Source: Terriglobia bacterium
Lineage (GTDB): Bacteria > Acidobacteriota > Terriglobia > Bryobacterales > UBA6623
Length of the DNA: 64,000 bases
Reading direction: 5' to 3'
Assembly (NCBI GenBank): GCA_009841225.1
Contig: VXMF01000048.1
Coordinates: 186,001-250,000 of the forward strand
Shown: positions 2,840 through 43,384 of the stretch, piece after piece
Layout: each line of letters opens with the position of its first letter
How positions within the stretch are numbered: position 1 is the first letter of the stretch
Translations under genes and position numbers: made by a program
Notes under the pieces: model-generated
Seen by the model: the letters and a program-made list of their open reading frames with translations, nothing else
What the model was told of the DNA's origin: nothing
Databases searched by the model: none

Positions 2840-2843
2840 CCTC

Positions 2844-3521
2844 ATGCATGCACACTCAGAAGCACGCATTCGCGCCGGGACACTCTGCGCGGTTCTTCTG
2901 GGAGCGGCTACGCTCCTCCCATCCCAAGAGGTGCGGTACTCAGGGCCTCAGAGCGGCGAGCCGCTAGACTCCTTCTCTGTCTTGGCTGTCAACGGGCCCG
3001 AGGCTGGGACGGAAGTCGACTTCGTCTCGCGCTGGGGGGATGACCCGATACTGCTGATCTTCCTGCATCAGCTGGACCGCAACATCGCCGCGTTGCTCCG
3101 CCCCTGCGAATGGTTCGCCCGGGACCGCGCCGAGGCCGGATTGAAGTCACTGATCGTATTCCTGCACGACGACAAGGTCTTCGGCGAGCGGCGAATGCAG
3201 GCCGTGGTGAAATCCATGGGCATTCAGATTCCAGTCGGGGTGTCTTTAGAAGGCCTTGAGGGGCCGGGATCTTACGGCCTCAATAAGAGCGTGGCGATCA
3301 CAATCTTGGTGGCCAACGACCGCGAGGTAACTGACAATTATGCGATCGTGCAGCCGGGCGTGGTCGACGCTCCTAAGATCTTGAATGCCGTCTCGGCCCA
3401 TGTTGGGGGTGATGTCGAGAAGCTGATGGCGAGAGTCCATGACGCGGATCGGAGAGCCATGATGGCCCGTCGGGCAAGGGCGAGGCAGGCCGAACAACCC
3501 AAGTCCAACGACAGCAACTGA
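2844..3521 (+). CDS. Secreted redoxin-like protein, paralog of the upstream N-terminal domain
   Basis: A 225-residue protein with a signal peptide (about 1-28). Residues about 30-195 match the first 200 residues of the preceding gene: both have a YSGPQ.GE.L opening, LAVNGP, DDPILLIF-type and GERRMQ motifs, and QPG.VDAPKI near the end. There is no CxxC, so classical disulfide chemistry is unlikely. The C-terminus is an Arg/Ala-rich tail. It starts 4 nt after the previous stop, so the two form an operon. It may act as a subunit or regulator of the fused protein; the function is unknown. Confidence 0.8.
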   Translation: MHAHSEARIRAGTLCAVLLGAATLLPSQEVRYSGPQSGEPLDSFSVLAVNGPEAGTEVDFVSRWGDDPILLIFLHQLDRNIAALLRPCEWFARDRAEAGLKSLIVFLHDDKVFGERRMQAVVKSMGIQIPVGVSLEGLEGPGSYGLNKSVAITILVANDREVTDNYAIVQPGVVDAPKILNAVSAHVGGDVEKLMARVHDADRRAMMARRARARQAEQPKSNDSN

Positions 3522-3910
3522 TCCGACGCTCTTCGGGCCTGACGAGGCTTGGCGGAAGGGGGTTCTGTGCACAGCCTCGAGCCTACGTAGAGCCGGGTAA
3601 GCTGACCGGGACCGCTGCTGCCGAGGTTCCCGTCCTGCTGAGCGAGATCGAGGAACAGCGCTAAGTCCAGCACCGCGGCACCGCTGGGATCGAGTCGCGG
3701 CAGCGGAACGCATGTGGACGCGGCTAGTCAGCCGCCAAAGGCGGTGATGGCATTGGACACTCGTATGACGCCGCTCCGCGCTCGGGTTAGCGGAATTGGC
3801 GGGGGCCCAGCTTGGTCAGGCGAGCCTACGATTCGAGATTCGCACGCGACAGTCGAACAGGGCAGGGTTGCGTGCAGTCCGGCGTCGGTGGAGGAGAGAG
3901 CGGGCAAGGA
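3522..3910. other. Intergenic region, no supported gene
   Basis: About 390 bases between the redoxin-like gene and the sulfatase. Short open frames exist in several phases, but none has a convincing start, ribosome site or recognisable product. A TACACT -10-like box lies at its right end, next to the sulfatase start. Confidence 0.5.
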
Positions 3911-3916
3911 TACACT
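3911..3916 (+). promoter_or_regulatory. -10 box for the sulfatase, leaderless arrangement
   Basis: TACACT ends 5 nt before GTG 3922 and 8 nt before ATG 3925, so transcription would start on or beside the start codon. No -35 match is visible. Confidence 0.35.
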
Positions 3917-3921
3917 TGTAG

Positions 3922-5376
3922 GTGATGTCTGGACTTACGAGGCGAGATTTCCTGGCAGGTTCAACAGGGGCGGTTGCGGCCTCCTGCGGCAACGAATCCA
4001 CTAAGCCCAGAGCCGTTCCCAACATCCTCCTAGTCGTGCCCGACCAGCTCCGCTACGACTGGACGAGCCTGAACCCCGCGATCGGCGTGCGCACCCCTCA
4101 CCTTGAAGCGCTCGCCGCCCGGGGAGTCAATTTCGTGAACAGTTACTGCGCCTCTCCGCTGTGCGCGCCGTCGCGGGCATGCCTAGCCGGGGGCAGGGAA
4201 TACGACCGCTGCGGAGTGCCCGATAACAGCCTGAACTACCCGCTGGACCAGACCACCTACTACACGCTGCTGCGGCAAGCGGGCTATCACGTGATGGGGT
4301 GCGGCAAGTTTGACTTGCACAAGCCCGAGCCGAGCTGGGGCGTGGAGGGGCAGCATCTGCTTCCGGAATGGGGGTTCTCCGCTGGAATAGACAGTGCCGG
4401 CAAGTGGGATGCGATCCGCTGGGGAATGGATGATCCGTGCGATCCCTACACTGCCCACCTGCATGCCACCGACCGTGCCGAGACGCATCATGAAGATTTT
4501 CTCAAGCGGCGCGAGATCGGCACGTTTGCAGCGACCTTCCCGACGCCGCTGCCGGAAGAGTCCTACTGCGATAACTGGATAGCAGCCCAGGGCGTGCGCC
4601 TGCTCCGGGAAGCTCCGCGCGATCAGCCATGGCACTTGGTTGTCAACTTCGCAGGGCCGCATGAGCCGGTGGACATCACGACGAGCATGGATAACCTCTA
4701 CCGCGATGTCGATTTTCCGCAGCCGTTCAAGAATACGGAGTTCACGACCGAGAAGCATATCGAGATCCGCCGCAATTATGCCGCGATGATCGAGAACATT
4801 GACGCGTGGATGGGAAGGCTACTGGCCGAAGTCGAAGCACGCGGCGAGCTTGAGAACACTTTGGTGGTCTTCACCAGCGACCACGGTGAGATGTTGGGTG
4901 ACCACGACCTGTGGATGAAGCGCCTGCCGCACCAAGCCTCGGTGGGTGTTCCGCTGGTAGTGGCTGGGCCTGGCGTGCAGGGCGGCGTTTCCACAGCAGC
5001 CCTCGCCAGCGTGATGGACCTTGCAGCGACCTTCCTCGACTACGCCGGACTCGACACCCCGTCTGAGATGGACAGCCGTTCGTTGCGGCCGGTGCTGGAG
5101 GGTGGGTCAGGCGATCACCGTGAATTCCTCCTGAGTGGCATGGATCCCTGGCGGTGCGTCACTGATGGAAGGCTGAAATTGGTTCGCGGCTATCCAGGTG
5201 GCAAGGCGCAGGGCGGCAGCGGCATCCCGGTCTATCCGGAAGGCGACTCGGCGGCCGCGCCGCTGCTGTTCGACGTACTGGAAGACCCGTTCGAGAACAG
5301 CAACTTGGCCGACAGCGCGCCCAGCGATGTGGCGCGCTTGACCACCGAGCTGCACCGGCTCATTGGCGTTGCATGA
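3922..5376 (+). CDS. Tat-exported sulfatase (Cys-type)
   Basis: A 484-residue alkaline-phosphatase-superfamily sulfatase that hydrolyses sulfate esters, probably on a polysaccharide or small sulfated substrate. The N-terminus has a twin-arginine signal (TRRDFLAGS). The metal-binding start is VVPDQLRYD, and the core CAPSR (C81) fits the CxPxR motif that a formylglycine-generating enzyme modifies. TSDHGEMLGDH supplies later metal ligands. The start may be GTG 3922 or ATG 3925. The stop overlaps the ferredoxin start (ATGA), so both are probably translated together. The substrate cannot be read from the sequence. No maturase gene is visible in the window. Confidence 0.9.
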   Translation: MMSGLTRRDFLAGSTGAVAASCGNESTKPRAVPNILLVVPDQLRYDWTSLNPAIGVRTPHLEALAARGVNFVNSYCASPLCAPSRACLAGGREYDRCGVPDNSLNYPLDQTTYYTLLRQAGYHVMGCGKFDLHKPEPSWGVEGQHLLPEWGFSAGIDSAGKWDAIRWGMDDPCDPYTAHLHATDRAETHHEDFLKRREIGTFAATFPTPLPEESYCDNWIAAQGVRLLREAPRDQPWHLVVNFAGPHEPVDITTSMDNLYRDVDFPQPFKNTEFTTEKHIEIRRNYAAMIENIDAWMGRLLAEVEARGELENTLVVFTSDHGEMLGDHDLWMKRLPHQASVGVPLVVAGPGVQGGVSTAALASVMDLAATFLDYAGLDTPSEMDSRSLRPVLEGGSGDHREFLLSGMDPWRCVTDGRLKLVRGYPGGKAQGGSGIPVYPEGDSAAAPLLFDVLEDPFENSNLADSAPSDVARLTTELHRLIGVA

Positions 5377-5756
5377 TGGCCGAGCCGCTCCGCATTCCAA
5401 CCGGTTCGTACTCTAGGCACATCCTGTTGTGTGCGGATCAGTCCAACCCGAAGTGCGCTCCTCGGAACGTTACTGTCCGCGCTTGGCAGAGGCTCAAGGA
5501 CCGGCTCAGAGAAATCGGCTTGGCCCAGGGTGACGGCTGCGTGTATCGCTCGAAGGTGAACTGTCTGCGCGTTTGCGAGAAGGGCCCTATTGCCGTGGTC
5601 TACCCAGACGGCACTTGGTACCACTCGGCGAGTGGGGAAGTCTTGGAGCGCATTCTCGTGGAACACCTGCGTGACGGCAAGCCCGTAGAGGAGTACATCT
5701 TCGCTCGGAATCCGCTGCCGCAGTTGGCGAATCAGGCCTCGCGCCATTCTGAGTGA
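5373..5756 (+). CDS. Thioredoxin-like [2Fe-2S] ferredoxin
   Basis: A 127-residue cytoplasmic ferredoxin of the thioredoxin fold. C20, C28, C64 and C68 (CxxxxxxxC and NCLRVC) are placed as the four ligands of one [2Fe-2S] cluster, followed by the typical GPIAVVYPDGTWY segment. It overlaps the sulfatase stop by 4 nt. ATG 5376 is an alternative start. The electron partner is not evident; coupling to a secreted sulfatase is unusual and may be only positional. Confidence 0.88.
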   Translation: MMAEPLRIPTGSYSRHILLCADQSNPKCAPRNVTVRAWQRLKDRLREIGLAQGDGCVYRSKVNCLRVCEKGPIAVVYPDGTWYHSASGEVLERILVEHLRDGKPVEEYIFARNPLPQLANQASRHSE

Positions 5757-5833
5757 GCGCCGATCTGCCAAACCAGCGAGACGCTCGCTTCGTTTGGTTC
5801 GCGGTCTAACCGGATGGAATCCGAGATCTCGTG

Positions 5834-5862
5834 TTGACTCAGTCGGCCATGCTTGCAATACT
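5834..5862 (+). promoter_or_regulatory. Sigma-70-type promoter, leaderless start
   Basis: TTGACT (5834-5839), a 17-nt spacer and AATACT (5857-5862), followed 6 nt later by ATG 5869. This geometry places transcription initiation at the start codon. No Shine-Dalgarno sequence is present. Confidence 0.5.
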
Positions 5863-5868
5863 CTCGCC

Positions 5869-6957
5869 ATGCGACGCCTTCAATTTGCACTAGTACTCGC
5901 TCTTGCCGTTCCGGCACTGGTCTGGTCCGACTCTGGCGAAGTCAAGCGGTACCTCTACCTCAGCATGCCGGACGGCGCCCAGAAAGAAGGGCGCTCCAAC
6001 GCCGGGATTCTCGTGTTTGACATCGACAACGGGCACAAGTTCGTCCGGCGTATTGACATGCCTATCTTCGAGGAGGGGCTGCGCGGTTTTGCCGGGAACC
6101 TCGCCAAGCACAGCGTCTACTACTCCTCGACCAACCACCGACTCGGCCGCTTCGACATCGAAAGCGAGAAGACTGTCTGGGAAAAGGTCTACGACGCAGG
6201 CTGCGACCGTTCCTCGGTAACGCTGGACGGTAAGAAGATCTACGTCCCCACCGGCTGGTGGTACAAGGGCGAGGACAGCGGGTTGCTCGTTGTCAACGGC
6301 GAGACTGGCGAAATCATCAAGCGAATCACGGTCGGGCCGGCGGCCCACAACAGCATCGTCAACCTAACCGGAACGAAGCTCTATCTCGGCACCACCACCA
6401 TGCTCTCGGTGTTTGACACTCAAACAGAAGAGCTCTTGATGCAAGTCAAGGATGTCGGCGAGCGCGGGGTCTTCCCGTTTACGATCGACAGCCGCGAGCG
6501 CTACGCCTATGTCTGCCTAGGCAATCACGTCGGCTTTGATGTTGTGGAACTAAAGACGGGGAATATCATCCACCGCGTGTTTGCGGGAGACGAAAAGATT
6601 CCGAACCGCACCCACGGAGCTGGTCTCACGCCTGACGAGAGCGAGCTCTGGATCAGTGACCAAAAAGGCAAGAAGTTGTTCATCTTCGACGCGACCAAGA
6701 TGCCGCCGGCGCCAAAGGGGCACGTGGAACTCTCGCAAGGCGGGCATGGCTGGGTGGCGTTCAGCTTGGACGGTGCCTACGCGTGGAGCCACACGCCCGA
6801 TGTCTTCGACGCCAAGACGAAGAAACTGGTGGCCACATTGCGTGACGGCAGCGGGACTCCGGTCAGCGGCTCCAAGTTCATGGAAGTCCATATGCGCGAC
6901 GGCAAGGTAGTGAGGATTGGTCACGAGTTCGGATTGGGGCGCAAACACTCCGACTAG
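5869..6957 (+). CDS. Secreted YVTN/YncE-like beta-propeller protein
   Basis: A 362-residue protein with a cleavable signal peptide (MRRLQFALVLALAVPALVWS). The body has repeated beta-propeller strands such as GILVFDIDNG, RFDIESEK, GLLVVNGETGEIIKRI and LFIFDATK, typical of the YVTN or PQQ-like seven-bladed fold. It probably binds a ligand or partner rather than catalyses. ATG 5869 is preferred over an upstream in-frame GTG 5794 because of the signal peptide and the promoter just before it. Its stop overlaps that of the convergent cytochrome gene within CTAG 6954-6957. Confidence 0.8.
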   Translation: MRRLQFALVLALAVPALVWSDSGEVKRYLYLSMPDGAQKEGRSNAGILVFDIDNGHKFVRRIDMPIFEEGLRGFAGNLAKHSVYYSSTNHRLGRFDIESEKTVWEKVYDAGCDRSSVTLDGKKIYVPTGWWYKGEDSGLLVVNGETGEIIKRITVGPAAHNSIVNLTGTKLYLGTTTMLSVFDTQTEELLMQVKDVGERGVFPFTIDSRERYAYVCLGNHVGFDVVELKTGNIIHRVFAGDEKIPNRTHGAGLTPDESELWISDQKGKKLFIFDATKMPPAPKGHVELSQGGHGWVAFSLDGAYAWSHTPDVFDAKTKKLVATLRDGSGTPVSGSKFMEVHMRDGKVVRIGHEFGLGRKHSD

Positions 6958-7439
6958 CGCAGCTCTAGCAGTTCGTCAGCATGCCAGTAGGCTGTCCTGC
7001 CGGTATGCTCGTCACGTATCCGCTTGACTTCGGCGGGTGTAACGCGCGGTTTGGCGGCACCGAAACGGGAGCGGGTGTAGGTTGCCAGTGCTGCCACATC
7101 GGCATCGGAAAGGGTCCTGCCGAATCCGGGCATCTCGCGGTCGTAGACCCGCCCGGCTAGTTCGATCCGACCGGTGATTCCGTGGAGCAGGATACGCACC
7201 AAGCGCTCGCTTGGCCCGACCACCCAAGGTGAGTCTTCCAGGGGAGGGGCTTCGCCCATGCCTTGGTCATCGTATTGATGGCAGGCCGAGCAGTGGCTCT
7301 CGAAGAGTCGCTCGCCACGGTTCGGCGCGCTCACAACCTGCTGCTGGGCGATGGAGTGCCAGGCAACTGCCAATAGGAGCGGAAGCGCTTTGGCGCACAG
7401 TCGCCGCGTCGCCTTGGCTGCAGCGCGAAGCGAACTCAA
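6954..7439 (-). CDS. Periplasmic monohaem c-type cytochrome
   Basis: A 161-residue class I cytochrome c with an N-terminal signal segment ending near SIAQQ. CSACH binds haem, and MPGFG supplies the probable distal Met ligand. The open frame extends upstream through dsbD, but the signal peptide and a GGAG 9 nt upstream support TTG 7439 as the start, 17 nt after the dsbD stop. It probably shuttles electrons in the periplasm. Pairing with dsbD suggests shared expression for thiol and haem-protein maturation. Confidence 0.78.
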   Translation of the reverse strand: MSSLRAAAKATRRLCAKALPLLLAVAWHSIAQQQVVSAPNRGERLFESHCSACHQYDDQGMGEAPPLEDSPWVVGPSERLVRILLHGITGRIELAGRVYDREMPGFGRTLSDADVAALATYTRSRFGAAKPRVTPAEVKRIRDEHTGRTAYWHADELLELR

Positions 7440-7456
7440 TGCTGCCTGCTCCAGTC

Positions 7457-9379
7457 CTACCCGGCACTCATCAAAAACTCGCGAAACTCTTGCACGTCGC
7501 GTGTCTGGCCAGAGAACGTGGCTGCCAAGGATCCGTCTGGCAGAATGAGCGCATAGAAGGGAATGCTGGATGAGCGGAAGCGTTCGATTTGGTACGCCTG
7601 ATTCTTCTCGCTGGCCTCGTCGAAGCCATCGGTGTACAACTCGACCAGCACGAAGTCGCGAATCAACTCGTCGACTTCCGGCTTGGTGAACATGTTGGCT
7701 TTCATCCACTTGCAATTTGAGCAAGCGTAGCCGGTAAAGCTGACCAAGAGGGGCTGGCTGGCGTTGCGCGCAGAGGCCGCGGCACCCTCGTAGTCGTCCT
7801 TGATCCAAGCAAGCGAGCCATCGCCGCCCGCGCCCAATCCGGTTCCGCTGGCCTCCGGGATGTGCGCTTCTAACTCGCCCAGCGAGCCGCCAAACATGCC
7901 GGGTAACAGGCTAAGGGCGAGCGCCAAGAACGCCGCGCCAAACCCGAATCGAACAAGTCCGACGGACTGTGCTGGTGCGTCGTCTCCAAGGTGGAGCACC
8001 CCCCACAGATACAGGGCCGCCGCAACGAAGAGTACTATCCAGATCGCCAGGAACCGTTCACGCGAGAGGACGTCCCAGCCGAGGACTTGATCGACGTTTC
8101 CAAGATATTTCAGGCCAACGGCGAGGATCAGGATCCCGGCTGTCCGCTTGGAGAGAGCCAGCCAGCCTCCGCTTCGCGGCAGCCTGTTCACCAAGGCCGG
8201 GAACATTGCCAGCACGAAGAACGGCGCCGAGAGGCCGGTCGCGAATAGCGTCATGCCGAGCATGGGATAGACGCTGCTACCTTCCGCGACGGAACCAGCC
8301 AAGAGCGAGCCGATGAACGGGCCAGTGCATGCGAACGACGCCAGAGTGAACACTAGGCTGAGCATCAACGTGGCCACGACGCCCGTCCCGTCAGAGTGCT
8401 TGCTCGCAGCCGTGGTCCAGCCGCTGGGAACAGTGATTTCGAACGCGCCGAGCATGCTGAGCGCGAAGAAGAGCATCACTGCGGCGATCAGTAGGTTTGC
8501 CCATGCGTTGGAACCAATTTGGCTGAGGCCGAAAGGTCCCAAGGTAGCGCTCAGCACACCTCCCAAGGCCGTGAACAACACGATCACTCCTAGGCAGAAC
8601 GTTCCCGCTTGGCGCAACACTGCGCCCCACGGACGGTTCGCGTCACTCATGAACGAGCCCATGTAGATCGGGATCATGGGAAAGACGCATGGAGTCAGGA
8701 TTGCCACGAATCCGAAGCCAAGTGCTAGCAGGGAGAAACCTAACAACCCCTGATTAGATGCTTCAAACACCTCGCCCGCTGCTTCAGTCGTCGCAACGCT
8801 GTCTGTGTCGCGAGATCGGGGACGTCCCACCGGGTTGACCTGAACGGGCTGATAGCCTGCTGGCAGGGTCACCGCTGATACCTCGGCGGCCGGGTTGACC
8901 CTGATGACCGCGGTTGCGCTCTTGCGCTTCGGTGCCAGGCACTGCCGATCGTCGCAAGCCCCGTACCGGACCAAGGCCTCGACGGTGTGTTCTCCTGATA
9001 TGTTCTCGGCTAGGTCGATCTCGACCAAGATCACAGCCTCGTCGGTGTACCACTCAACTTCAGCCTGAAAGTTCGGGTCGAAGACAATCTCGGGATCCGG
9101 CTGGTGCGCGCGCCATCCGGTGATCGCGTCGGATTCGGCCATGCCCACAGCCAGAGGGATGCCTTCTGGGGTCGTAGTTGAATAGAAGTGCCAACTGTCC
9201 TCGATCTCCGCGGTCAGCCGTGCCAGCGCAGTCGCGCCCGGTGGGTACTCCTCTGCAGTGAGTTCGAGACGCCACTGCACGGGATCGTAGACCTGGCCGG
9301 CGGCCGGCACGCCCGGCAGTAGCGCCTGGGCTAGAGCTAGCGCGACGAGCACGCACGGCGTGAGCAGGCGGGAGTTCAT
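7457..9379 (-). CDS. dsbD: Thiol:disulfide interchange protein DsbD
   Basis: A 640-residue inner-membrane protein that moves reducing power from cytoplasmic thioredoxin to periplasmic thiols. It has a signal peptide, an N-terminal DsbD-alpha-like domain (about 30-190), a membrane domain of about eight helices with its redox cysteines in TPCVFPMIP and FACTGPF, and a C-terminal thioredoxin-like domain with ACSNCKWMK. ATG 9379 is chosen because the signal peptide starts there; TTG 9391 is possible. It precedes the cytochrome gene and probably follows the small gene and MFS gene in one minus-strand run. Confidence 0.92.
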   Translation of the reverse strand: MNSRLLTPCVLVALALAQALLPGVPAAGQVYDPVQWRLELTAEEYPPGATALARLTAEIEDSWHFYSTTTPEGIPLAVGMAESDAITGWRAHQPDPEIVFDPNFQAEVEWYTDEAVILVEIDLAENISGEHTVEALVRYGACDDRQCLAPKRKSATAVIRVNPAAEVSAVTLPAGYQPVQVNPVGRPRSRDTDSVATTEAAGEVFEASNQGLLGFSLLALGFGFVAILTPCVFPMIPIYMGSFMSDANRPWGAVLRQAGTFCLGVIVLFTALGGVLSATLGPFGLSQIGSNAWANLLIAAVMLFFALSMLGAFEITVPSGWTTAASKHSDGTGVVATLMLSLVFTLASFACTGPFIGSLLAGSVAEGSSVYPMLGMTLFATGLSAPFFVLAMFPALVNRLPRSGGWLALSKRTAGILILAVGLKYLGNVDQVLGWDVLSRERFLAIWIVLFVAAALYLWGVLHLGDDAPAQSVGLVRFGFGAAFLALALSLLPGMFGGSLGELEAHIPEASGTGLGAGGDGSLAWIKDDYEGAAASARNASQPLLVSFTGYACSNCKWMKANMFTKPEVDELIRDFVLVELYTDGFDEASEKNQAYQIERFRSSSIPFYALILPDGSLAATFSGQTRDVQEFREFLMSAG

Positions 9380-25715: not shown

Positions 25716-25970
25716 ATGGCTCTGAACATTCGTAACGCCGAGACGGAGCAACTCGCCGAAGCTCTGGCGAGGCTGACGGGTGAGACAAAGACGCGCGCGG
25801 TCACGGTAGCGTTGCGAGACCGACTGAATAGGCTCCAGCGGGACCGGTCCGGTCGCAGCCTCGCGCAGGAACTGGAGGAAATCGCAGACCATTGCTCATC
25901 TCTTCCAGTCCTGGATTGCCGCGATACGGACGAGATCCTCGGATACGACGAGATTGGCCTGCCGTCCTGA
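25716..25970 (+). CDS. vapB: Antitoxin, VapB/Rv0623-like
   Basis: An 84-residue antitoxin. The N-terminal part (MALNIRNAETEQLAEALARLTGETKTRAV) is the DNA-binding region typical of the Rv0623-type VapB family, and the acidic C-terminus (DTDEILGYDEIGLPS) is the usual segment that wraps the toxin. It overlaps the toxin start by one base (TGATG), so the pair is translationally coupled. It presumably neutralises VapC and represses the operon through the palindromes just upstream. Confidence 0.85.
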   Translation: MALNIRNAETEQLAEALARLTGETKTRAVTVALRDRLNRLQRDRSGRSLAQELEEIADHCSSLPVLDCRDTDEILGYDEIGLPS

Positions 25971-26371
25971 TGGTGATTGACACTTCGGCATTGGTTGCCA
26001 TTCTCCGAAGCGAGCCCGAGCGCAGGGAATTCGTTCTTGCGATCGAGCAAGCGGAACACCGGGTCCTGTCGGCAGTCTCATTCGTCGAGACCTCGATCGT
26101 CATCGGCTCCCGCTACGGGCCTGAAGGACTGCGTGACCTCGACCTCTTTATCGGCAAGGCCCGCATCGAGATCGTTGCGGTGGAGGAGGAGCAGGCTCAG
26201 ATTGCCCGTCGAGCTCACATGCAATACGGCAGGGGGCACCATCCTGCACGGCTAAACCTAGGCGACTGCTTTTCCTATGCCCTGGCGAAAGTGATGGACG
26301 AACCCTTGCTGTGCAAAGGCGGCGACTTCGTTCGCACGGACATCGCCACCCATCTCCGCTCGACCAGCTGA
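25970..26371 (+). CDS. vapC: Toxin, PIN-domain ribonuclease VapC
   Basis: A 133-residue PIN-domain RNase. The acidic active-site residues appear in MVIDTSALVAIL (first Asp), SFVETS (Glu), LNLGDCFSYALA (third acid) and GGDFVRTDI (fourth). Members cut tRNA or rRNA to slow growth, but the specific target cannot be predicted. The start ATG 25970 is fixed by the VIDTSA motif and by overlap with the vapB stop. Confidence 0.88.
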   Translation: MVIDTSALVAILRSEPERREFVLAIEQAEHRVLSAVSFVETSIVIGSRYGPEGLRDLDLFIGKARIEIVAVEEEQAQIARRAHMQYGRGHHPARLNLGDCFSYALAKVMDEPLLCKGGDFVRTDIATHLRSTS

Positions 26372-26707
26372 CGACAGCGGTCGAGGAGGAACTCTCGCAC
26401 ACCCGAGCACCTGCGACCGGCGATCATGCCGGCTGCTACGGCGGGTTCGCTTCCGAACAGGGCGATATTGCCGAGTCCCATCCCAGCGCGGGCTAGATCA
26501 AGTAACCTGCTCGCTGTTTGCGGATCGCGGACATCGGTCCGTCTCCCTGCATTGCCGGCGCCACGCGGAATGGCCCGCTCCACAGGCGGAACAACTCCCC
26601 GCGAGGGGCCACGGTTTGGCTTCTGCCGGCATCGTGCGGAGCTGGCCTCATAGTGAGATTCTGGAACGGCTCGGGGTTATCCTAGGTCAGCGCCGGGGGT
26701 GCACATC
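26372..26707. other. Intergenic region between vapC and the CehA gene
   Basis: About 335 bases without a supported gene. A TATCCT -10-like box (26678-26683) lies before the CehA gene. A minus-strand open frame here has a stretch resembling an exported-protein N-terminus (RAGMGLGNIALFG) but no intact gene. Confidence 0.45.
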
Positions 26708-28957
26708 ATGTTTCGCTCAGTTCTCTTCGGCATTGCGTTCGGTGTTATGGCACCGCTCGCGCTTTGGTCGCAGGCCGAGATTGCGCTCCAGCCGCTTGCA
26801 CAGCACACGCGTCGGCTCGAGCAAGCGTTGGTCTACTTGGGCCAGCCGCTTGAGGCTAATGCCGCCGAGGCGATCAGCAAAGCGGTAGGACTGCCTGACG
26901 AGTCCGCAGCTGTTCGCGAAATCCAGCGGGTCTTGGACGAACTGGTCTTGGTCCATGTCGAGATCAACCCGGAGAGCCGCGTCAAGGTACGGCAGGGTGC
27001 CGCAGTGGCGTCATTGGTCGAGCAGGGGACGCGCCTGTTTCTGGTCAAGGTGCACAACGAAGCAGGCGTAACGGCACCCCTGCGTGTGTTCAGCCCCAAC
27101 AGCGGGCCTACCTCGTTGCGCTCCCGAGGGGAGCACGAGCCGGCCATGGAACTCGGACGGCAGGAGGTGCGCGAGCGCTGGGCCGAGATCTCGATTTACT
27201 CCGACCCGCCCATGGCGCCGCGATTGACCGGCCTGCCGATCGAATACGAGATCTTGCAGGTCTACAGCCGCGACCGCGGGCAGCGCTCAGCCAAGATCGC
27301 GATGGACGTGGGACAGGGCAGCCAGGACATCGGCTTTCGCAATGACGTCCTGATCGCGTTCAACATCGCGCCGAGCCGTTCGGTCCCCCTGCGCGTGCGC
27401 AGCGAAAACGGCGAGTCCGGCGTGGCGTCGTTCCTCTTCAAGGATAGGCAGGGCAGGGTGTACCCCAATCCTTCGAAGCGCCTCGAGCCGGACTTCCCGT
27501 TCCAGCAGCATGTCTATCGCTTCGATGGAGAAGACATCCGACTGCCGGACGGCTACTACACGGTGGAGTATGGCGGTGGCCCCGAGTTCCGCACCCGCAC
27601 CAAGGAGTTCCCGGTGTCCGGTGACAGTCCGGCGGAGATCTCGGTTCAGCTCGAGCGCTGGATCGATCCGTCGAAGTACGGTTGGTGGTCCGGAGACCAC
27701 CACGTCCACGCTTCGGGTTGCGCCCACTACAAGAACCCGACCGAAGGCGTAGGGCCGATGGCCATGCTGCGTCAAATCCTCGGAGAGAACCTGAACATCG
27801 GCGCGGTCCTGACCTGGGGGCCCTCTTGGTACTTCCAGAAGCAGTTCTTTTCGAGCATGGACCACCCCCTCTCACGCGACGAGCGCGTCATGCACTACGA
27901 CGTTGAGGTTTCAGGGTTTCCGTCCAGCCACGCCGGGCACTTGGTGCTGCTCGGCCTGAGCGAAGACGACTACCCCGGCACTACGCGAATCGAAGAATGG
28001 CCTTCTTGGGACCTGCCGGTCTTGCAGTGGGCCAAGGCGCAAGGCGCTGTGACCGGTTTCTCGCATTCCGGCTGGGGCCTCCAGATCAGTGCCGAGGAGC
28101 TTCCCTCGCACGAGATGCCGGGATTCGATGGCATCGGCGCGAACGAGTACATCGTGGACGTGACGCACCCGAACACCATCGACTTTCTCTCCGCTGTGGA
28201 CACACCTTACTTCTGGGAGATGAACATCTGGTACCACGCGCTCAACGTGGGCTTCCGGACGCGCATCTCCGGCGAGACTGACTTTCCCTGCATCTATCAG
28301 GAGCGGGTTGGCCTCGGACGCAGCTACGTGAAGCTGGAAGAACTCTCGTACGCCGGGTGGGTTGAAGGCATTCGCCGCGGCGCGGCGTACGTCAGCGACG
28401 GCAAGAGCCACTTGATGGATTTTGAAGTGGGCGGCGTAGCCCTGGGTTCGGGAGAGCCGGACCTCGCTGTTCGAGCCAACGAAGCAGTGACCGTACGTCT
28501 GAAGGCGGCAGCAATGCTGGGCCGGCATCCTGATCCTCGCTTTGACGGGCTCGCAGCCGACGCGAAGCCGTACTGGGATGTCGAACGAGCGCGTGTGCCC
28601 GGCAGTCGCAACGTCCCGGTGGAACTAGTAGTGAACGGTCGCGTGGCCGGGCGGTCGGAAATTTTCGCTGACGGGACGATCCACGACTTGGAATTCTCGG
28701 TCCAGCTGCCGCGCAGTGCGTGGGTGGCAGCGCGAATCCCTATGTCATCGCACACCAACCCGATTTTCGTCGCGGTCGATGGCGAGCCAATCCGGGCTTC
28801 GCGTCGAAGCGCCGAATGGTGCCTAGCCGCAGTCGATCAGTGCTGGTCCCAGAAAGCGCCGCTCACACGTGCCAGCGAGCGCCAGGATGCGCTGGCCGCA
28901 TACGACCACGCTCGGCGGACTTACCGGCGCTTGATCGAGGAATCGCCCATTCCCTAA
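26708..28957 (+). CDS. Secreted CehA/McbA-type metallohydrolase
   Basis: A protein of about 749 residues with a signal peptide (MFRSVLFGIAFGVMAPLALWSQA). A mostly beta N-terminal half (to about 310) is followed by the PHP-like metallohydrolase, with metal motif GDHHVHASGCAHY at about 325 and the conserved later blocks GFSHSGWG and GETDFPCIYQERVG. It lacks the TolB propeller of its paralog at 11187-13685. ATG 26708 is preferred over GTG 26699 because the signal peptide starts there. The last 20 codons have a decayed copy at 30860-30928. Confidence 0.83.
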   Translation: MFRSVLFGIAFGVMAPLALWSQAEIALQPLAQHTRRLEQALVYLGQPLEANAAEAISKAVGLPDESAAVREIQRVLDELVLVHVEINPESRVKVRQGAAVASLVEQGTRLFLVKVHNEAGVTAPLRVFSPNSGPTSLRSRGEHEPAMELGRQEVRERWAEISIYSDPPMAPRLTGLPIEYEILQVYSRDRGQRSAKIAMDVGQGSQDIGFRNDVLIAFNIAPSRSVPLRVRSENGESGVASFLFKDRQGRVYPNPSKRLEPDFPFQQHVYRFDGEDIRLPDGYYTVEYGGGPEFRTRTKEFPVSGDSPAEISVQLERWIDPSKYGWWSGDHHVHASGCAHYKNPTEGVGPMAMLRQILGENLNIGAVLTWGPSWYFQKQFFSSMDHPLSRDERVMHYDVEVSGFPSSHAGHLVLLGLSEDDYPGTTRIEEWPSWDLPVLQWAKAQGAVTGFSHSGWGLQISAEELPSHEMPGFDGIGANEYIVDVTHPNTIDFLSAVDTPYFWEMNIWYHALNVGFRTRISGETDFPCIYQERVGLGRSYVKLEELSYAGWVEGIRRGAAYVSDGKSHLMDFEVGGVALGSGEPDLAVRANEAVTVRLKAAAMLGRHPDPRFDGLAADAKPYWDVERARVPGSRNVPVELVVNGRVAGRSEIFADGTIHDLEFSVQLPRSAWVAARIPMSSHTNPIFVAVDGEPIRASRRSAEWCLAAVDQCWSQKAPLTRASERQDALAAYDHARRTYRRLIEESPIP

Positions 28958-28964
28958 GGTCTTC
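28896..28964 (+). repeat. Direct repeat, copy A (3' end of CehA gene)
   Basis: These 69 bases, covering the last 20 codons of the CehA gene and its stop, align without gaps to 30860-30928 with 54 of 69 positions identical by eye. The two copies are in the same orientation and bracket the agarase-like gene. Confidence 0.7.
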
Positions 28965-29334
28965 CTCCAGCTGGTGATAGCCCGCGGAGGGCTTGCAGCA
29001 CTCGAGATCTCGCGGCGGCCTGCTTGCAGTTGTTAGCGTCTTTGTTATAGCTTTCCTTAAGCAAGAAATGCCTGCCCGGGACGTGAACGACAACGCGGAG
29101 TCTCTTGGCGACACATGCCACGCGCCCACAGGCGAGCGCAGCTCCGGCTCCCATTGCCCGGGAGCGAGCATCGACCTGCGTCTGGCGAATCAGACTCGAG
29201 CGGGCCTCGGGCATCCAATCCCGTTTCCGGAATTGCAGCCGTGCCATTGCAGTCGCCGAATCGGAGTGCAGCCACCGGCACAGCGCTTCGCGGCCCGGCT
29301 ATGCTCGCTTGCGGTTGGTGTCAGGGCGCAATCC
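28965..29334. other. Intergenic region, no supported gene
   Basis: About 370 bases after the CehA gene up to the end of the agarase-like gene. No intact gene, hairpin with T-tract or repeat beyond the edge of repeat A was recognised. Confidence 0.45.
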
Positions 29335-30774
29335 TCAGAGGTCGCCGGAAGCGATGCCATAGATCTCGGCCGTACACCTGGTAAGCGTTTCCTTCAGTGC
29401 GGGATACGGCTCGCCGTAGCCGTCGAGCAGGCCAGAATGCTGGCGCTCCCGCTTGCCTGTCACCCGATTTGACGCGTCGATCAAGCCGCAGTAGTGCCAA
29501 CCGACGAAATCTGGTCGGGCGAAAGCGCTCCGGAAGAACTCCGAGGTCCAGTCCGCACGCTCGGCGAGACTATCGGCAACGGGCCCGTAGGGCCGTGGCA
29601 TGGTCTCGGTGATCATGGTGAACGCCGAGTCTCCATTGATCAGCGGCTTGTCGACAAGCTTTGACCAGCGGTCCAGCCCGGGCTGCTGCACCTCGTATCG
29701 CCCGTACATCTGGTAGAAGACGATGTCCGTAATACGGCTTGTGACGGGCAGAACGGTGTCTAGCGAATCGGTGTTCGCGTTGATCTTGTCCCCTACGAAG
29801 AGGTGATTGGGATCGTGGCGCGTGATCGCATCCCGGGCCGTCTGGTAGTACCGAGCCACAACGCGCTTGAGGAACTCGATATTGTCTCGGGTCTCGTTTC
29901 CGTTCGATAAGTCTGTTCCGGGACGCCATTGTTCGGCGGATGCGAGTGCTTCGAACGAGTCGAATTGCGTGCCGTACGTCGCATTGAAGTCGTCGATGCC
30001 TCCACGGTAGAGCTCTCTAACGGTCTCGACGTAGGCTGTCTTCCCGGGGCTCCGCGGGCCTAGGTTCCGGAGGCGACGCGGCCAGCCGATCCTTGAGGGC
30101 CGCCGCGCTCCGCCGATTACGTCTGGGCGCTCGCGGCAGTCCTCTTCTGTCAGAAGTGGGCAGTCCGTCATGGCGTAGCCGACAAGGAACGGGTCGTCTC
30201 TAGCTGGGGCGGCGAGTTCTCTTGCCAACCGGTCGCAACGGCGGCCGAAATCATCATCGAAGACGTCCAGAAAATTCTCGTCGGGGATTTCCGTCCTCCA
30301 GTGAGGGATGTCCACGAAGCTGATCGGCTGCATGTACGGCATAGCCGGTTTCGGGTTGTTCAACACCGGCAGCCCCGTGTGGACTCCAACGGTGTTGAAT
30401 CCGTACTCGCGGCATGTCTTGAGAAACCACGTCCTTAAGGCTGTTTGAAACTCAGGCCCCCTCAGCTGGCTCAGTCCCAGCCGGGCTTCCCATGCATCAC
30501 GGTTGAATTCCTGGTTCCACCAATTCGGATGCAAGTGGTTGATTCCGAAGCTAAGAAATGCGTTGCCTTCAGGGGTTACAAGCCACCACCGGTCATCCTT
30601 CTCGACCCGGAAGAATCCGGTGGCTTGGAAGCGCTTGCCTGTCCATCCGCCGAATCGGTCGCGGCTGTCGGTGGTAGCGGTGCCTTGAGCGGCCATGTGC
30701 TCGACGAATGGATCGAACGCGAGAGCCGTTAGGGCGTTGCGAATGAAGTGGCGCCGGTTCAACGCGCCTGACAT
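29335..30774 (-). CDS. Agarase-like glycoside hydrolase, Tat-exported
   Basis: A 479-residue protein with a Tat signal (LNRRHFIRNALTALAF). WWLVTPEGNAFLSFGINHLH near residue 65-85 is the hallmark of agarase-type (GH50-like) TIM-barrel enzymes, followed by YGFNTVGVHTG, a central DPFLVGYAMTDCPL region and the C-terminal GWHYCGLID. It may cut galactans or other sulfated polysaccharides, fitting the sulfatases nearby, but the exact substrate is not determined. It sits between two direct repeats in opposite orientation to its flanking CehA sequence. Confidence 0.75.
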   Translation of the reverse strand: MSGALNRRHFIRNALTALAFDPFVEHMAAQGTATTDSRDRFGGWTGKRFQATGFFRVEKDDRWWLVTPEGNAFLSFGINHLHPNWWNQEFNRDAWEARLGLSQLRGPEFQTALRTWFLKTCREYGFNTVGVHTGLPVLNNPKPAMPYMQPISFVDIPHWRTEIPDENFLDVFDDDFGRRCDRLARELAAPARDDPFLVGYAMTDCPLLTEEDCRERPDVIGGARRPSRIGWPRRLRNLGPRSPGKTAYVETVRELYRGGIDDFNATYGTQFDSFEALASAEQWRPGTDLSNGNETRDNIEFLKRVVARYYQTARDAITRHDPNHLFVGDKINANTDSLDTVLPVTSRITDIVFYQMYGRYEVQQPGLDRWSKLVDKPLINGDSAFTMITETMPRPYGPVADSLAERADWTSEFFRSAFARPDFVGWHYCGLIDASNRVTGKRERQHSGLLDGYGEPYPALKETLTRCTAEIYGIASGDL

Positions 30775-30859
30775 TCTCGCAGGGAAGCCAGCTATTCGGC
30801 AATTCAGAAATGTTGCGGAACAGGAACGCGGGAGGCATGAAGGTGGGAGGACGGCTGGG

Positions 30860-30928
30860 GCCGCATACGACCGCGCTTGGCGAACCGACTAACGCCTGAT
30901 CGCGGAATCCCCCATCTCCTGAGGCCTT
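30860..30928 (+). pseudogene. Decayed fragment of a second CehA-gene 3' end (repeat copy B)
   Basis: This piece matches 28896-28964 at 54 of 69 positions without gaps. It reads AAYDRAWRTD, an in-frame TAA, then RLIAESPIS and a stop, against AAYDHARRTYRRLIEESPIP in the intact gene. Similarity fades upstream. It is therefore the remnant of a CehA-family gene in the same orientation, on the far side of the agarase-like gene. Confidence 0.7.
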
Positions 30929-30955
30929 GCTCGGAAGCTATTGCTTGGATTCCGC

Positions 30956-31714
30956 TTAACGCGCAGTCGCGCCCCCGTCAATCACCATCGTTTGGCCGGT
31001 GACCCACGTAGACTCATCCGATGCCAAGTACAGTGCGATGCCGCCGATGTCGCTGGTCTCTCCGAGCCGCTGGATCGGCTGATTTGGAGGATACGGGGCG
31101 TCTTCGTCCAAGTTCTTCCAAAAGAACGAGCTGAAGTCGGTTCGCACCAAGCCTGGTGCGATGGCGTTGACGCGTACTCCGCTCGGCCCCCATTCGTTGG
31201 CCCAGGTGCGGGTCATCATGATCAGGCCCGACTTGGTGAAGCTGTACAGCAGTCCCTCCCTCTGGGGCCGCAGGCCCGCGATGGAAGCCACGTTGATGAC
31301 GGACCCGCCCCCCTTTTCCATCATCTTGGGCACGACCAAGCGCAGGAAGCGCACTGCCGACAGGACATTGATCTCGACCATCTTGAGCACTGCGGCGTCA
31401 GTCACGTTGAGCGACGGGCCTTGTTCGAGGTTGGTCGCTCCGTTGTTGACCATGACATCGATCGTGCCGAACCGTTTCTCGGTGGCGGCAACTGCGGCCT
31501 CGATCTGATCCGCCTTGCCGATATTGCAGGGGACTACGTCAATGCGGCCGGGAAGCGACGAGAACTCCTCGGCGGTCTGTTGGAGATTCTCCAACTTGCG
31601 GCTGGCGATCATCACGTCGGCGCCTGCTTCGACAAAGCGTCGCGCGATATCCTTGCCGATTCCCCGGCCACCGCCGGTGACTAGAGCAACTTTGCCTTCT
31701 AGGCTGAAACCCAT
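30956..31714 (-). CDS. Short-chain dehydrogenase/reductase
   Basis: A 252-residue classical SDR using NAD(P). Cofactor motif [12 protein letters not shown] in place of the usual NNAG, catalytic Ser in ASIAG and YSFTK for the Tyr-Lys pair, and the C-terminal [11 protein letters not shown]. It has an excellent ribosome site (AAAGGAGG, 12 nt before the ATG). It diverges from a phosphotransferase gene often found with SDR and acyl-CoA dehydrogenase genes, which hints at lipid or ketone metabolism; the substrate is open. Confidence 0.93.
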
Positions 31715-38569: not shown

Positions 38570-39491
38570 CGACAGCATCTCGGCAGCGGCGACGCGGTTC
38601 TTGGCGTCATTGCGGGCGCGCAACGCATCGAAAAACACGATTGCAAGCTACGGCAGGGACCTAGGCGTGTTCGTCAGCCATTTCAGTTCGGACCCGGGGC
38701 AGGCCCCATCGGTGGGACGAGTCACGCGGCTAATGATTCGCGAGTTCATGGCCGAGGGCCGGTCGAAGGGTCTGTCACCGGCGACTCTGGCGCGCCGGTT
38801 GGCGGCCCTGAGGGGGTTCTTCGACTACTTGGTTCTCGAGGAGGGCTTTCCCAACAATCCGGCCCGCAGCCTCGCTGCTCCCAAGATCTCCCAGAAACTG
38901 CCTCCGGTCATGAGCGCTGAGGACACCAACCAAATAATCAACGCCGTGCAGTTTGACAGCGAGCGAGACCGCTTTGAGGGCAAGGTCGTCCGCGACCGCC
39001 TGATCTTTGAACTGCTCTACGGTGCGGGGCTGCGTGTCAGCGAGCTCGTCGGCTTGAACCTGAACGACATCGACAGGGCCGAGCGCTGGATCGAAGTCAG
39101 GGGCAAGGGGCGCAAGGAACGCCAAGTGCCGTACGGAGCGCGAGCTGACGAAGCGCTGGAACGCTATTTGAAGGTGCGGGAGAGTCTCGAGGCCCCGCGC
39201 ACGGAGAAGGCCTTGTTCTTGCACCGCTGGGGAGGGAAGCTCCGGCGCCTGACGACTCGCAGCGTCGGCTTGATCGTCAAGAAATACGCACGCTTGCTGA
39301 GTGGCGACCCATCCCTGCATCCGCACTCGTTGCGGCACGCCTTCGCCACGCACTTGCTCTCAGAGGGAGCGGACCTGCGCGCAATCCAGGAGCTATTGGG
39401 CCACGCCAGCCTGTCGACCACGCAGAAGTACACCCAACTGTCCATGAGCGAGTTGATGAAGGTCTACGACGCGGCGCACCCGAAGGCCTAG
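38547..39491 (+). CDS. xerC: Tyrosine recombinase XerC/XerD
   Basis: A 314-residue site-specific recombinase, probably resolving chromosome dimers at dif. The N-terminal core-binding domain (about 10-100) is followed by the catalytic domain with Arg in GAGLRVSEL, Lys in KGRKERQVP, HPHSLRHAFATHL (His-Arg), LGHASLSTTQKY (His and nucleophile Tyr). It starts inside trmFO, so the two are coupled. XerC or XerD cannot be separated by sequence alone. No neighbouring mobile element supports an integrase role. Confidence 0.93.
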   Translation: MSSKQQPDDSISAAATRFLASLRARNASKNTIASYGRDLGVFVSHFSSDPGQAPSVGRVTRLMIREFMAEGRSKGLSPATLARRLAALRGFFDYLVLEEGFPNNPARSLAAPKISQKLPPVMSAEDTNQIINAVQFDSERDRFEGKVVRDRLIFELLYGAGLRVSELVGLNLNDIDRAERWIEVRGKGRKERQVPYGARADEALERYLKVRESLEAPRTEKALFLHRWGGKLRRLTTRSVGLIVKKYARLLSGDPSLHPHSLRHAFATHLLSEGADLRAIQELLGHASLSTTQKYTQLSMSELMKVYDAAHPKA

Positions 39492-41521: not shown

Positions 41522-43384
41522 CTATCCGGCGTCGGAGCCTCTTGACGCGAAACGGTCGATCAGGAACATCACCGCTGCCAGGGCCGCCAGCGATAGCCAC
41601 AAGCTGTCGACCAGGGTCACGGGGATCTCAATGCCGGTGAGCAGAGTCTTGGGAATCGCGATCAGTATGCCCGCGATCGCCTCTCCGGCGATCAGTCCGG
41701 AAGCGATCAGCAGGCCGTTGTGCCGCGCTCCCTCGGAGCGCTTCTGGAGGCGCTGTGAGATCAAGCCCCCGAGGAAAATAGGCACCATCAGCGAGAGCGG
41801 CAGGTAGATGCCAACTGCGACGGGCATTACATGCGCGCGAAAGCGGCTGCCGGAGCGCTGCAGGAAGCCGTCGAACAGGACGATGCCGACCGCGATCAGC
41901 GCCCCGATCCAGACCATGTTCCAGGGGATGCTGGAGTCTCCGAACAACCCCTCCGCGATCGATGCGAACAGGGTGGCTTGCGGTGCCAGCAGGGCATTGG
42001 GTTCGCCCGTGCCGATGCCGTATGCCTTGTGCAGCAGCGTCAAGACCGGGGCAATGGTGAAGACGGGCACGAGAATGCCGATCAGCTGGCCTGTCTGCTG
42101 AAGGCGCGGAGTTGCCCCTACCAACTGGCCGGTCTTGAGGTCTTGCGACGTGTCACCGGCGGTTGCGGCGGCGCAGCACACGATGCTGGCCACGCCTAGC
42201 GCGCCTAGAATTCCCGCGCTGCCAGTCATGCCTAGGATCAGCAGAATGACCGAGGAGAACATCAGGGCGCAGATTGTCGTGCCCGAAATGGGATTGTTGG
42301 ACGATCCCACCAAGCCGCAAATGTAGCTTGAAACTGCCACAAAAAAGAGCGAGCTGACGAGCATCACGATCCCTGCAGTCAACGCGACCTGCAGAGAACC
42401 GGTGACGGATTGGTACAGCACGAACGTACCGAGGGCGACCACTGCGAAGCCTGCGCCGACCAAGGAGTTAGGCAGGTCTTGATCGGTGCGTTCGATCGAT
42501 TGGCCGCTTCTTCCAACGCCGCCAAGCAGGTGGCGCACCGCCTTCGCGATTCCGCCGCGGATATTCCACATCGATGCCAGCCCGCCTACGATCATGGCCC
42601 CCACGCCCATGTAGCGAATCTGGCTGCTCCACAGCGCCCACGCCGCGTCCAGGGCGGACTGTTCGGTCAGGGGGTTTAACCAATAGAAGATCGGAATAGC
42701 GAACAGCCAGGCGATCACGCTTCCCGCCAAGGCGGCGATGCCAATCTCGACACCGACGATCACGCCGACTCCCAGTAGCGCGACCGAGACGTCCGTGCCG
42801 CCATAGAGCACGGTGCCCGCCACCCTCCACGCGGCCTCTGCCGTACTGCGAAAGACCGCGACCAAGCCTACGAGCGATTTGAACACCAATCCACCGCCAA
42901 GAGCGGACAGGATCGTGCGCATGGGGCTTCCGCCCGACTCTCCTGCCTCGAGCACTTGGGCGCAGGCCACGCCCTCCGGGTAGATCAGCTCCTTGTCCTC
43001 GACGATCAGGACCCGCCGCAAGGGGACCATGAAGAGCACGCCGAGCAGGCCGCCCAGCAAGCCGATCAGGGAGACCTTCCAAAAGGAAAACTCCAACCAA
43101 ACCCCGGTGATCAGCATGGCGGGCACGGTGAAGATGATCCCCGCTGCTACGGCCTCTCCAGCCGAGGCGATGGTCTGCACGATGTTGTTCTCTCGGATCG
43201 TGCCACGCCTCAGCAGCCCGCGCAGGATGCCCATCGAAACGATAGCCGCCGGTATGCTGCCGGTAACGGTCATCCCCGCATACAGCCCGAGATAGGTGTT
43301 TGCCGCCGTGAGTACCGTGCCGATCAGCAGTCCGATGACGATGGCCCGAATAGTGAGTTCGCGCGCTGGATGGGACGGAAGCAT
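41522..43384 (-). CDS. OPT/YSL family oligopeptide transporter
   Basis: A protein of about 620 residues with about 14-16 membrane helices. NTYLGLYAGMTVTGSIPAAI near the N-terminus is the OPT signature, and later blocks include YPEGVACAQVLEAGE and SYICGLVGSSNNPISG. OPT proteins import oligopeptides or metal-chelate complexes with protons. ATG 43384 is preferred because the preceding stretch to 43426 resembles non-coding sequence. It lies alone in opposite orientation to hpnJ, across the repeat array. Confidence 0.9.
   Translation of the reverse strand: MLPSHPARELTIRAIVIGLLIGTVLTAANTYLGLYAGMTVTGSIPAAIVSMGILRGLLRRGTIRENNIVQTIASAGEAVAAGIIFTVPAMLITGVWLEFSFWKVSLIGLLGGLLGVLFMVPLRRVLIVEDKELIYPEGVACAQVLEAGESGGSPMRTILSALGGGLVFKSLVGLVAVFRSTAEAAWRVAGTVLYGGTDVSVALLGVGVIVGVEIGIAALAGSVIAWLFAIPIFYWLNPLTEQSALDAAWALWSSQIRYMGVGAMIVGGLASMWNIRGGIAKAVRHLLGGVGRSGQSIERTDQDLPNSLVGAGFAVVALGTFVLYQSVTGSLQVALTAGIVMLVSSLFFVAVSSYICGLVGSSNNPISGTTICALMFSSVILLILGMTGSAGILGALGVASIVCCAAATAGDTSQDLKTGQLVGATPRLQQTGQLIGILVPVFTIAPVLTLLHKAYGIGTGEPNALLAPQATLFASIAEGLFGDSSIPWNMVWIGALIAVGIVLFDGFLQRSGSRFRAHVMPVAVGIYLPLSLMVPIFLGGLISQRLQKRSEGARHNGLLIASGLIAGEAIAGILIAIPKTLLTGIEIPVTLVDSLWLSLAALAAVMFLIDRFASRGSDAG

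Follow-up and report, generated by a model that had tools for sequence, protein, structure and literature searches.

We found that the 3' end of cehA occurs twice in the window (the whole stretch of 64,000 nucleotides that was analysed), on either side of a single gene resembling exo-beta-agarases of family GH50. This arrangement is very probably an insertion with long target duplication, in which a segment of about 1.9 kb would have been relocated within the chromosome and joined into the end of cehA without Ku and without a transposase. Two related genomes carry the empty site, the target is duplicated around the segment, the insertion in all six species that share it goes back to one ancestral event, the second copy has decayed neutrally, and cehA itself is intact. 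The features of the locus, in window coordinates, are as follows.

26699-28957, plus strand: cehA, the intact target gene, encoding a CehA/McbA family metallohydrolase (NCBIfam NF038032, 265.1 bits with a cut-off of 80; open reading frame)
28878-28967, plus strand: copy 1 of the duplicated target (repeat alignment and six-species consensus)
28968-30842, no strand: inserted segment of about 1.9 kb, not present in G009 or G007 (comparison with the empty sites)
29335-30774, minus strand: GH50-like (exo-beta-agarase-like) gene, 479 aa, the sole clear gene of the insert (profile and structure matches)
30843-30932, plus strand: copy 2, the original cehA 3' end, non-coding and decaying, with an in-frame stop (alignments, spacing and tree)
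30956-31714, minus strand: SDR oxidoreductase gene, which adjoins cehA in the empty sites (PF13561)

The original prediction, that the 3' end of cehA recurs in the same orientation beyond the agarase-like gene, was borne out by the window alignment, in which 28894-28967 and 30859-30932 were identical at 58 of 74 positions with a spacing of 1965. The coordinates first given for the repeat were one base out of register (an offset of 1964), and the identity first counted as 54 of 69 bases was 53/69 at the offset of 1965, as against 17/69 at 1964. A chance similarity of the two copies was rejected on three grounds. The next best ungapped match of the 74-mer in the window reached 35/74 on the plus strand and 36/74 on the minus strand; in a search of the whole own genome (G000; 5.74 Mb in 58 contigs) with a 151-base query, copy 2 was the sole other match of low E-value (1.2e-10, the next being 0.116); and when the two copies of each of the six genomes were aligned with each other, the scores (26 to 43) lay above every one of 300 shuffles per genome, the maxima of which were 16 to 20. 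In a general self-comparison at E < 1e-3 the repeat was detected in the window, in G005 (35 bp) and in G010 (89 bp); in G001 and G003 it was more decayed, was missed at this threshold and was visible in the focused alignment only.

In the six-species consensus the similarity of the copies widened to 70/90 positions and then stopped, which in window terms corresponds to about 28878-28967 and 30843-30932. Copy 1 so defined holds the last 77 nt of the cehA coding sequence, the stop codon and 10 nt beyond. Its well-matched core in the window is 28894-28967, and the additional 16 bp (28878-28893) are seen in the six-species consensus only, having decayed in the window itself (62/90 over the 90-bp span). 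The stop noted earlier inside the reading frame of the second copy was confirmed, with copy 2 reading AAYDRAWRTD*RLIAESPIS*, and so was the presence of a single clear gene, on the opposite strand, between the repeats. The five other open reading frames of the insert gave no Pfam match, and most of them overlap the agarase-like gene or cehA. We also looked, as had been suggested, for other remnants of cehA between 30774 and 30860; the six-species consensus showed none from the agarase start up to a point about 16 bp before the core.

The locus was then compared among 11 congeneric genomes, the own genome included; one collection scan for cehA relatives covered the best 80 of 178 loci. The order cehA, agarase-like gene (minus strand), tail copy and SDR gene (minus strand) was found in 6/11 genomes, namely in the window, G005, G003, G010, G001 and, over two contigs, G006. 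The proposal that relatives might hold the same locus free of the agarase gene proved correct for G009 and G007, where both flanks could be read, a single copy of the target is present and cehA lies directly beside the SDR gene. In these empty sites the last cehA codon is 40 nt (G009) and 45 nt (G007) from the last SDR codon, and in the window the last cehA codon of copy 2 is 39 nt from it. Since this spacing is kept, copy 2 is the original end of cehA in its original place, displaced from its gene by the insertion. The empty state was read in 2/5 congeners outside the six-species clade; G004 and G008 have cehA with no SDR neighbour in the flanks read, and in G002 the cehA match ends at residue 679 near a contig edge, so that these three genomes are uninformative on the empty state.

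The six copy-2 sequences formed one group in the tree (support 99.6/99), within which G003, G006 and G001 (97.6/99) and the window sequence and G010 (92.6/92) were joined, the placement of G005 being unsupported (0/38); in the cehA tree the six species were grouped at 100/100. In seven columns the six copies 1 and the six copies 2 had no base in common. Over 25 codons, the variable columns at codon positions 1, 2 and 3 numbered 3, 2 and 15 in copy 1 and 16, 15 and 15 in copy 2, and the six species shared a mean pairwise identity of 86.4% in copy 1 and 71.3% in copy 2. In the window the two copies differ by 22%. Copy 1 is thus constrained as a coding sequence and copy 2 is not, and the data establish one old insertion event in the ancestor of the six species, followed by neutral decay of copy 2.

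According to our model, a segment of about 1.9 kb, made up of one GH50-like gene and its flanks, would have been joined into the last 80 bp or so of cehA in the ancestor of the six species. About 90 bp of the target (the cehA tail, its stop codon and about 10 bp beyond) would have been left on both sides, and the displaced original tail beside the SDR gene then decayed neutrally; the final anatomy requires that the target segment was used twice. cehA stayed whole because the duplication reaches past its stop codon. The joining may have proceeded through widely staggered nicks and fill-in around a captured fragment, or else through template switching, in which a replication fork would have switched to the donor gene and returned about 90 bp behind its exit point; both routes would work without Ku and without a transposase. 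Ku (PF02735) was detected in 0/11 genomes, with a positive control in B. subtilis, and therefore classical bacterial end joining (Ku/LigD) is unlikely in the present species. No recombinase (transposase or integrase) was recognised in the insert by inspection of its open reading frames and by Pfam search, and terminal inverted repeats, sought in the window down to 10 nt, did not rise above the shuffle level. Insertion of a DDE transposon or IS element was rejected, as there was neither a transposase nor terminal inverted repeats and the duplication is of about 90 bp instead of a short fixed one.

The 479-aa product of the inserted gene had no Pfam or NCBIfam match. A 10-member profile of the protein, compared with the PDB, matched the beta-agarase 4bq2 (E 1.3e-20) and also 4bq4, 6xj9, 5z6p and 5t3b, and Foldseek matched a model of moderate quality (mean pLDDT 61.3) to these structures as well, 4bq2 with E 2.5e-18. 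In the structural alignments the protein was 15-19% identical to solved GH50 agarases. The designation "agarase-like" thus appears fair at the level of the family, with the substrate putative. Of 396 genomes sampled across the phylum, 12 matched the agarase at E <= 1e-40; apart from the own genome, these were 11 members of a single other genus, with identities of 46-48%. In the literature we found nothing uniting Bryobacterales, sponge and agarase.

Identity to the agarase-like gene of the window was 86-91% within the six-species clade and, outside it, 76% in G004, 74% in G009, 72% in G007 and 50% in G008. In these four genomes the relatives stand at other loci, and in G002 a piece of the gene was found at a contig end. 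The agarase tree joined the window sequence with G005 and G010 (90/93) and G004 with G007 and G009 (89/100), the rest of that fork being open; it was compatible with the cehA tree but weaker, with most forks weak and the six species not resolved as one group. Because identity falls with kinship, the gene trees are compatible and the gene occupies other loci in sister species, we infer that the segment moved to cehA from elsewhere in the same chromosome. The simplest reading is that the gene was inherited within the genus and changed place several times, with a visible duplication at cehA; a transfer from an unsampled congener is possible. No donor scar of the gene was identified in the six species.

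The agarase gene of G009 is flanked by a TonB gene and a FAH gene; in G007, G005 and G008 the aligned parts of these two genes are separated by 53, 64 and 105 nt, respectively. In G000 and G010 the gap between the two genes is filled by about 1 kb of other sequence, which in both (L217 in G000:C25 and L227 in G010) includes, by eye, a RelE/HigB-type toxin-like gene; in G004 a TonB gene beside the FAH gene was not found. At the G009 agarase site no target duplication was visible, the scores being at the shuffle level, so that moves of the agarase gene do not all leave such a mark. In the 16-kb stretches around the agarase genes of G004, G007 and G009 there were no direct repeats at E < 1e-3, a weak negative, as this test also misses the decayed repeat of G001 and G003. 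In G008 (L148) we noticed a 59-bp direct repeat (3615-3673 and 7384-7442, 47/59 identical), which ends 6 bp before the start codon of the agarase-like gene. The approximately 3.7 kb between its copies, upstream of the agarase gene, are missing in G002; the junction between the two genomes is not clean, with about 218 bp of G002 unmatched.

Direct-repeat pairs (spacing 300-9000, E <= 1e-5) were surveyed in 1.469 Mb of the own genome; of the 49 pairs obtained, ten had one copy that was less than 60% coding. One pair proved to be a second insertion with long target duplication; it lies at 38637-38720 and 42729-42811 of G000:C23 (L260, L261; also L281, L282), is 84 bp long and 89% identical, extends over the end of a sulfatase gene and has a single TonB-type gene between its copies. 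The same insertion was found with longer duplicates in G010 (221/276 aligned columns) and G005 (329/404). The sulfatase site is empty in G001 and G003, where the immediate downstream marker was read. In G009 and G007 the sulfatase gene and a marker gene further downstream were found with no TonB gene between them, and in G008 and G002 the sulfatase gene had no TonB gene in the stretch read; in G006 the contig ends too early, and in G004 the sulfatase had no match at E <= 1e-120. Orthologues of the TonB gene (84-97%) are present on contigs other than that of the sulfatase in G001, G002, G003, G006, G007 and G008, about 98 kb from the sulfatase in G009 and, with a stop, in G004. In G000, G010 and G005 no other TonB copy above 58% was found.

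Several other histories could account for the anatomy at cehA. One is integration driven by homology (Campbell-type or homology-facilitated illegitimate recombination), in which the resident cehA tail would have recombined with a DNA circle or a transferred fragment on which the agarase gene already had a cehA 3' end beside it. It would produce the same final anatomy, a circle route has been proposed for Arabidopsis transposed genes with flanking repeats in the part of PMC2869330 that deals with them, and the 22% divergence of the copies in the window could partly predate the event. However, neither copy matched the agarase surroundings (L145-L148) of G004, G007, G009 and G008 at E <= 1e-3, cehA and the agarase gene are adjacent in the six species only, among the 11 congeners, and the unconstrained evolution of copy 2 within the clade can explain the divergence. 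We consider this history unlikely. A tandem duplication of cehA, with decay of the second copy and insertion or capture of the agarase gene between the two, was one of the two readings offered at first, the other being an insertion that duplicated its target at the 3' end of a gene. Copy 2 does consist of cehA sequence, in unchanged orientation and interrupted by a stop, but a single cehA match at E <= 1e-50 was obtained in each of the 11 genomes, even the six-species consensus shows no similarity further than about 16 bp upstream of the 74-bp core, the empty sites hold one cehA, the native junction of cehA with the SDR gene lies beyond copy 2, and an extra insertion would still be required. 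Tandem duplication was therefore abandoned as very improbable, and the insertion reading, with its empty sites and its kept spacing, was retained.

A site-specific recombinase or transposon that targets and restores gene 3' ends, and was since lost, would agree with the position of both verified cases at gene 3' ends and with their intact target genes. Against it stand the lack of a recognised recombinase in the insert, terminal inverted repeats at shuffle level in the window, duplication lengths that are far apart (about 90 bp at cehA and 276 bp at the sulfatase in G010) and targets that are unrelated genes; moreover, the location at 3' ends is accounted for by selection that keeps the target gene intact, and we regard the lost recombinase as extremely improbable. 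Since an insertion spares a gene only if the duplication passes its stop (or start) codon, the occurrence of both cases at 3' ends needs no targeting. A dedicated route of the genus, which would move single metabolic genes into 3' ends and duplicate ninety to several hundred bp so that the target survives, is in our opinion a doubtful proposition.

Long target duplications range in length from tens to hundreds of bp. The term "insertion with long target duplication" was introduced for H. pylori by Nobusato, Uchiyama, Ohashi and Kobayashi 2000 (Gene 259:99-108), as cited in the relevant passages of PMC1643837, PMC3031569, PMC3154945 and PMC4978471. In the portion of PMC1643837 concerned with such insertions, they are described as often associated with restriction-modification genes in comparisons of Helicobacter pylori, and a passage of PMC3031569 gives the lengths of the duplications as long and variable. 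As in those cases, the gene at cehA is present compared with a relative without it, a long direct target duplication lies on both sides, and the length varies (about 90 bp here; 276 bp in G010 and 404 columns in G005 at the second locus). Unlike them, the insertions described here occur in Bryobacterales and carry a GH50-like gene (TonB at the second locus) and no restriction-modification cargo; as that same passage of PMC1643837 calls the association "frequent", we treat such cargo as typical and not as defining. The present event also differs from the described long target duplications in its age, which allows its decay to be traced across six species.

Integrative elements that enter gene 3' ends restore the end of their target and leave a fragment of the old end on the far side. 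The cehA locus resembles them in both respects, but no integrase was recognised here and the length of the duplication differs between the loci. In Arabidopsis, according to the section of PMC2869330 on transposed genes, non-transposon genes have moved and are flanked by host-derived direct repeats that are single at the empty orthologous site, and all of this applies to cehA as well; in contrast to the plant, for which a circle and homologous reinsertion were proposed in that section, no donor homology was seen here. The cehA case is a new instance of insertion with long target duplication, with another kind of cargo and an unusually clear series of fossils.

The relocation of a gene without a transposon is a step in genome evolution of which little normally remains visible. 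Here, the same fossil at different stages of decay in six species, together with two empty sites, makes both the duplicated extent and the neutral decay directly readable. The results suggest that restriction genes are not the only cargo of long target duplications. They also hold a warning for annotation, since a tail of this kind is not necessarily a pseudogene left by a second cehA.

The survey gave three further pairs in the own genome with a gene's 3' end inside one of the copies.

C52, 28063-28247 and 31747-31933 (L302): 187-bp repeat, 82% identical
C25, 89332-89576 and 97302-97758 (L315): 3' end of a sulfatase gene, in two collinear pieces
C34, 16719-16857 and 22248-22368: one copy includes a gene's 3' end

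The C52 repeat takes in the 3' end of what is, by eye, a CCA-adding enzyme-like gene, and the pair brackets a sulfatase gene and one further open reading frame. Between the C25 copies lie about 8 kb that include genes judged by eye to be AbiE-like and encode a 1703-aa protein; we take the bracketed genes to resemble an AbiE toxin-antitoxin pair and a large helicase. A 253-bp, 82% identical pair at 248746-248998 and 257459-257708 of G000:C23 (L292) is a decayed piece of the interior of a gene, on the far side of genes that by eye resemble type I-E cas genes.

Pairs with one copy under 60% coding numbered 10 in 1.46 Mb of the own genome compared with 14 in 0.79 Mb from outside the genus (L019-L088), gene calls being crude (length of the open reading frame and GC3). 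The congeners outside the clade gave 3 in 0.29 Mb and the clade relatives 3 in 0.25 Mb, these fragments having been fetched around these very genes and forming no random sample. Cutting into 14-kb chunks for this comparison lost two pairs of the 49-pair survey, the sulfatase pair among them, and gained two. The idea that the own genome is unusually rich in such repeats was not supported, and because the pairs are no denser here than in other bacterial fragments, the cehA case is not evidence of a special system.

Upstream of cehA, at 25892-26371 of the window, we noticed by eye a PIN-domain-like open reading frame, the counterpart of which in G010 (L157, 5494-5969) matches in two reading frames, suggesting a frameshift. 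In L019, a short sequence just after cehA (8248-8458), with ends that by eye match in inverted orientation, is found again at 2262-2432 and looks like a small non-autonomous element.
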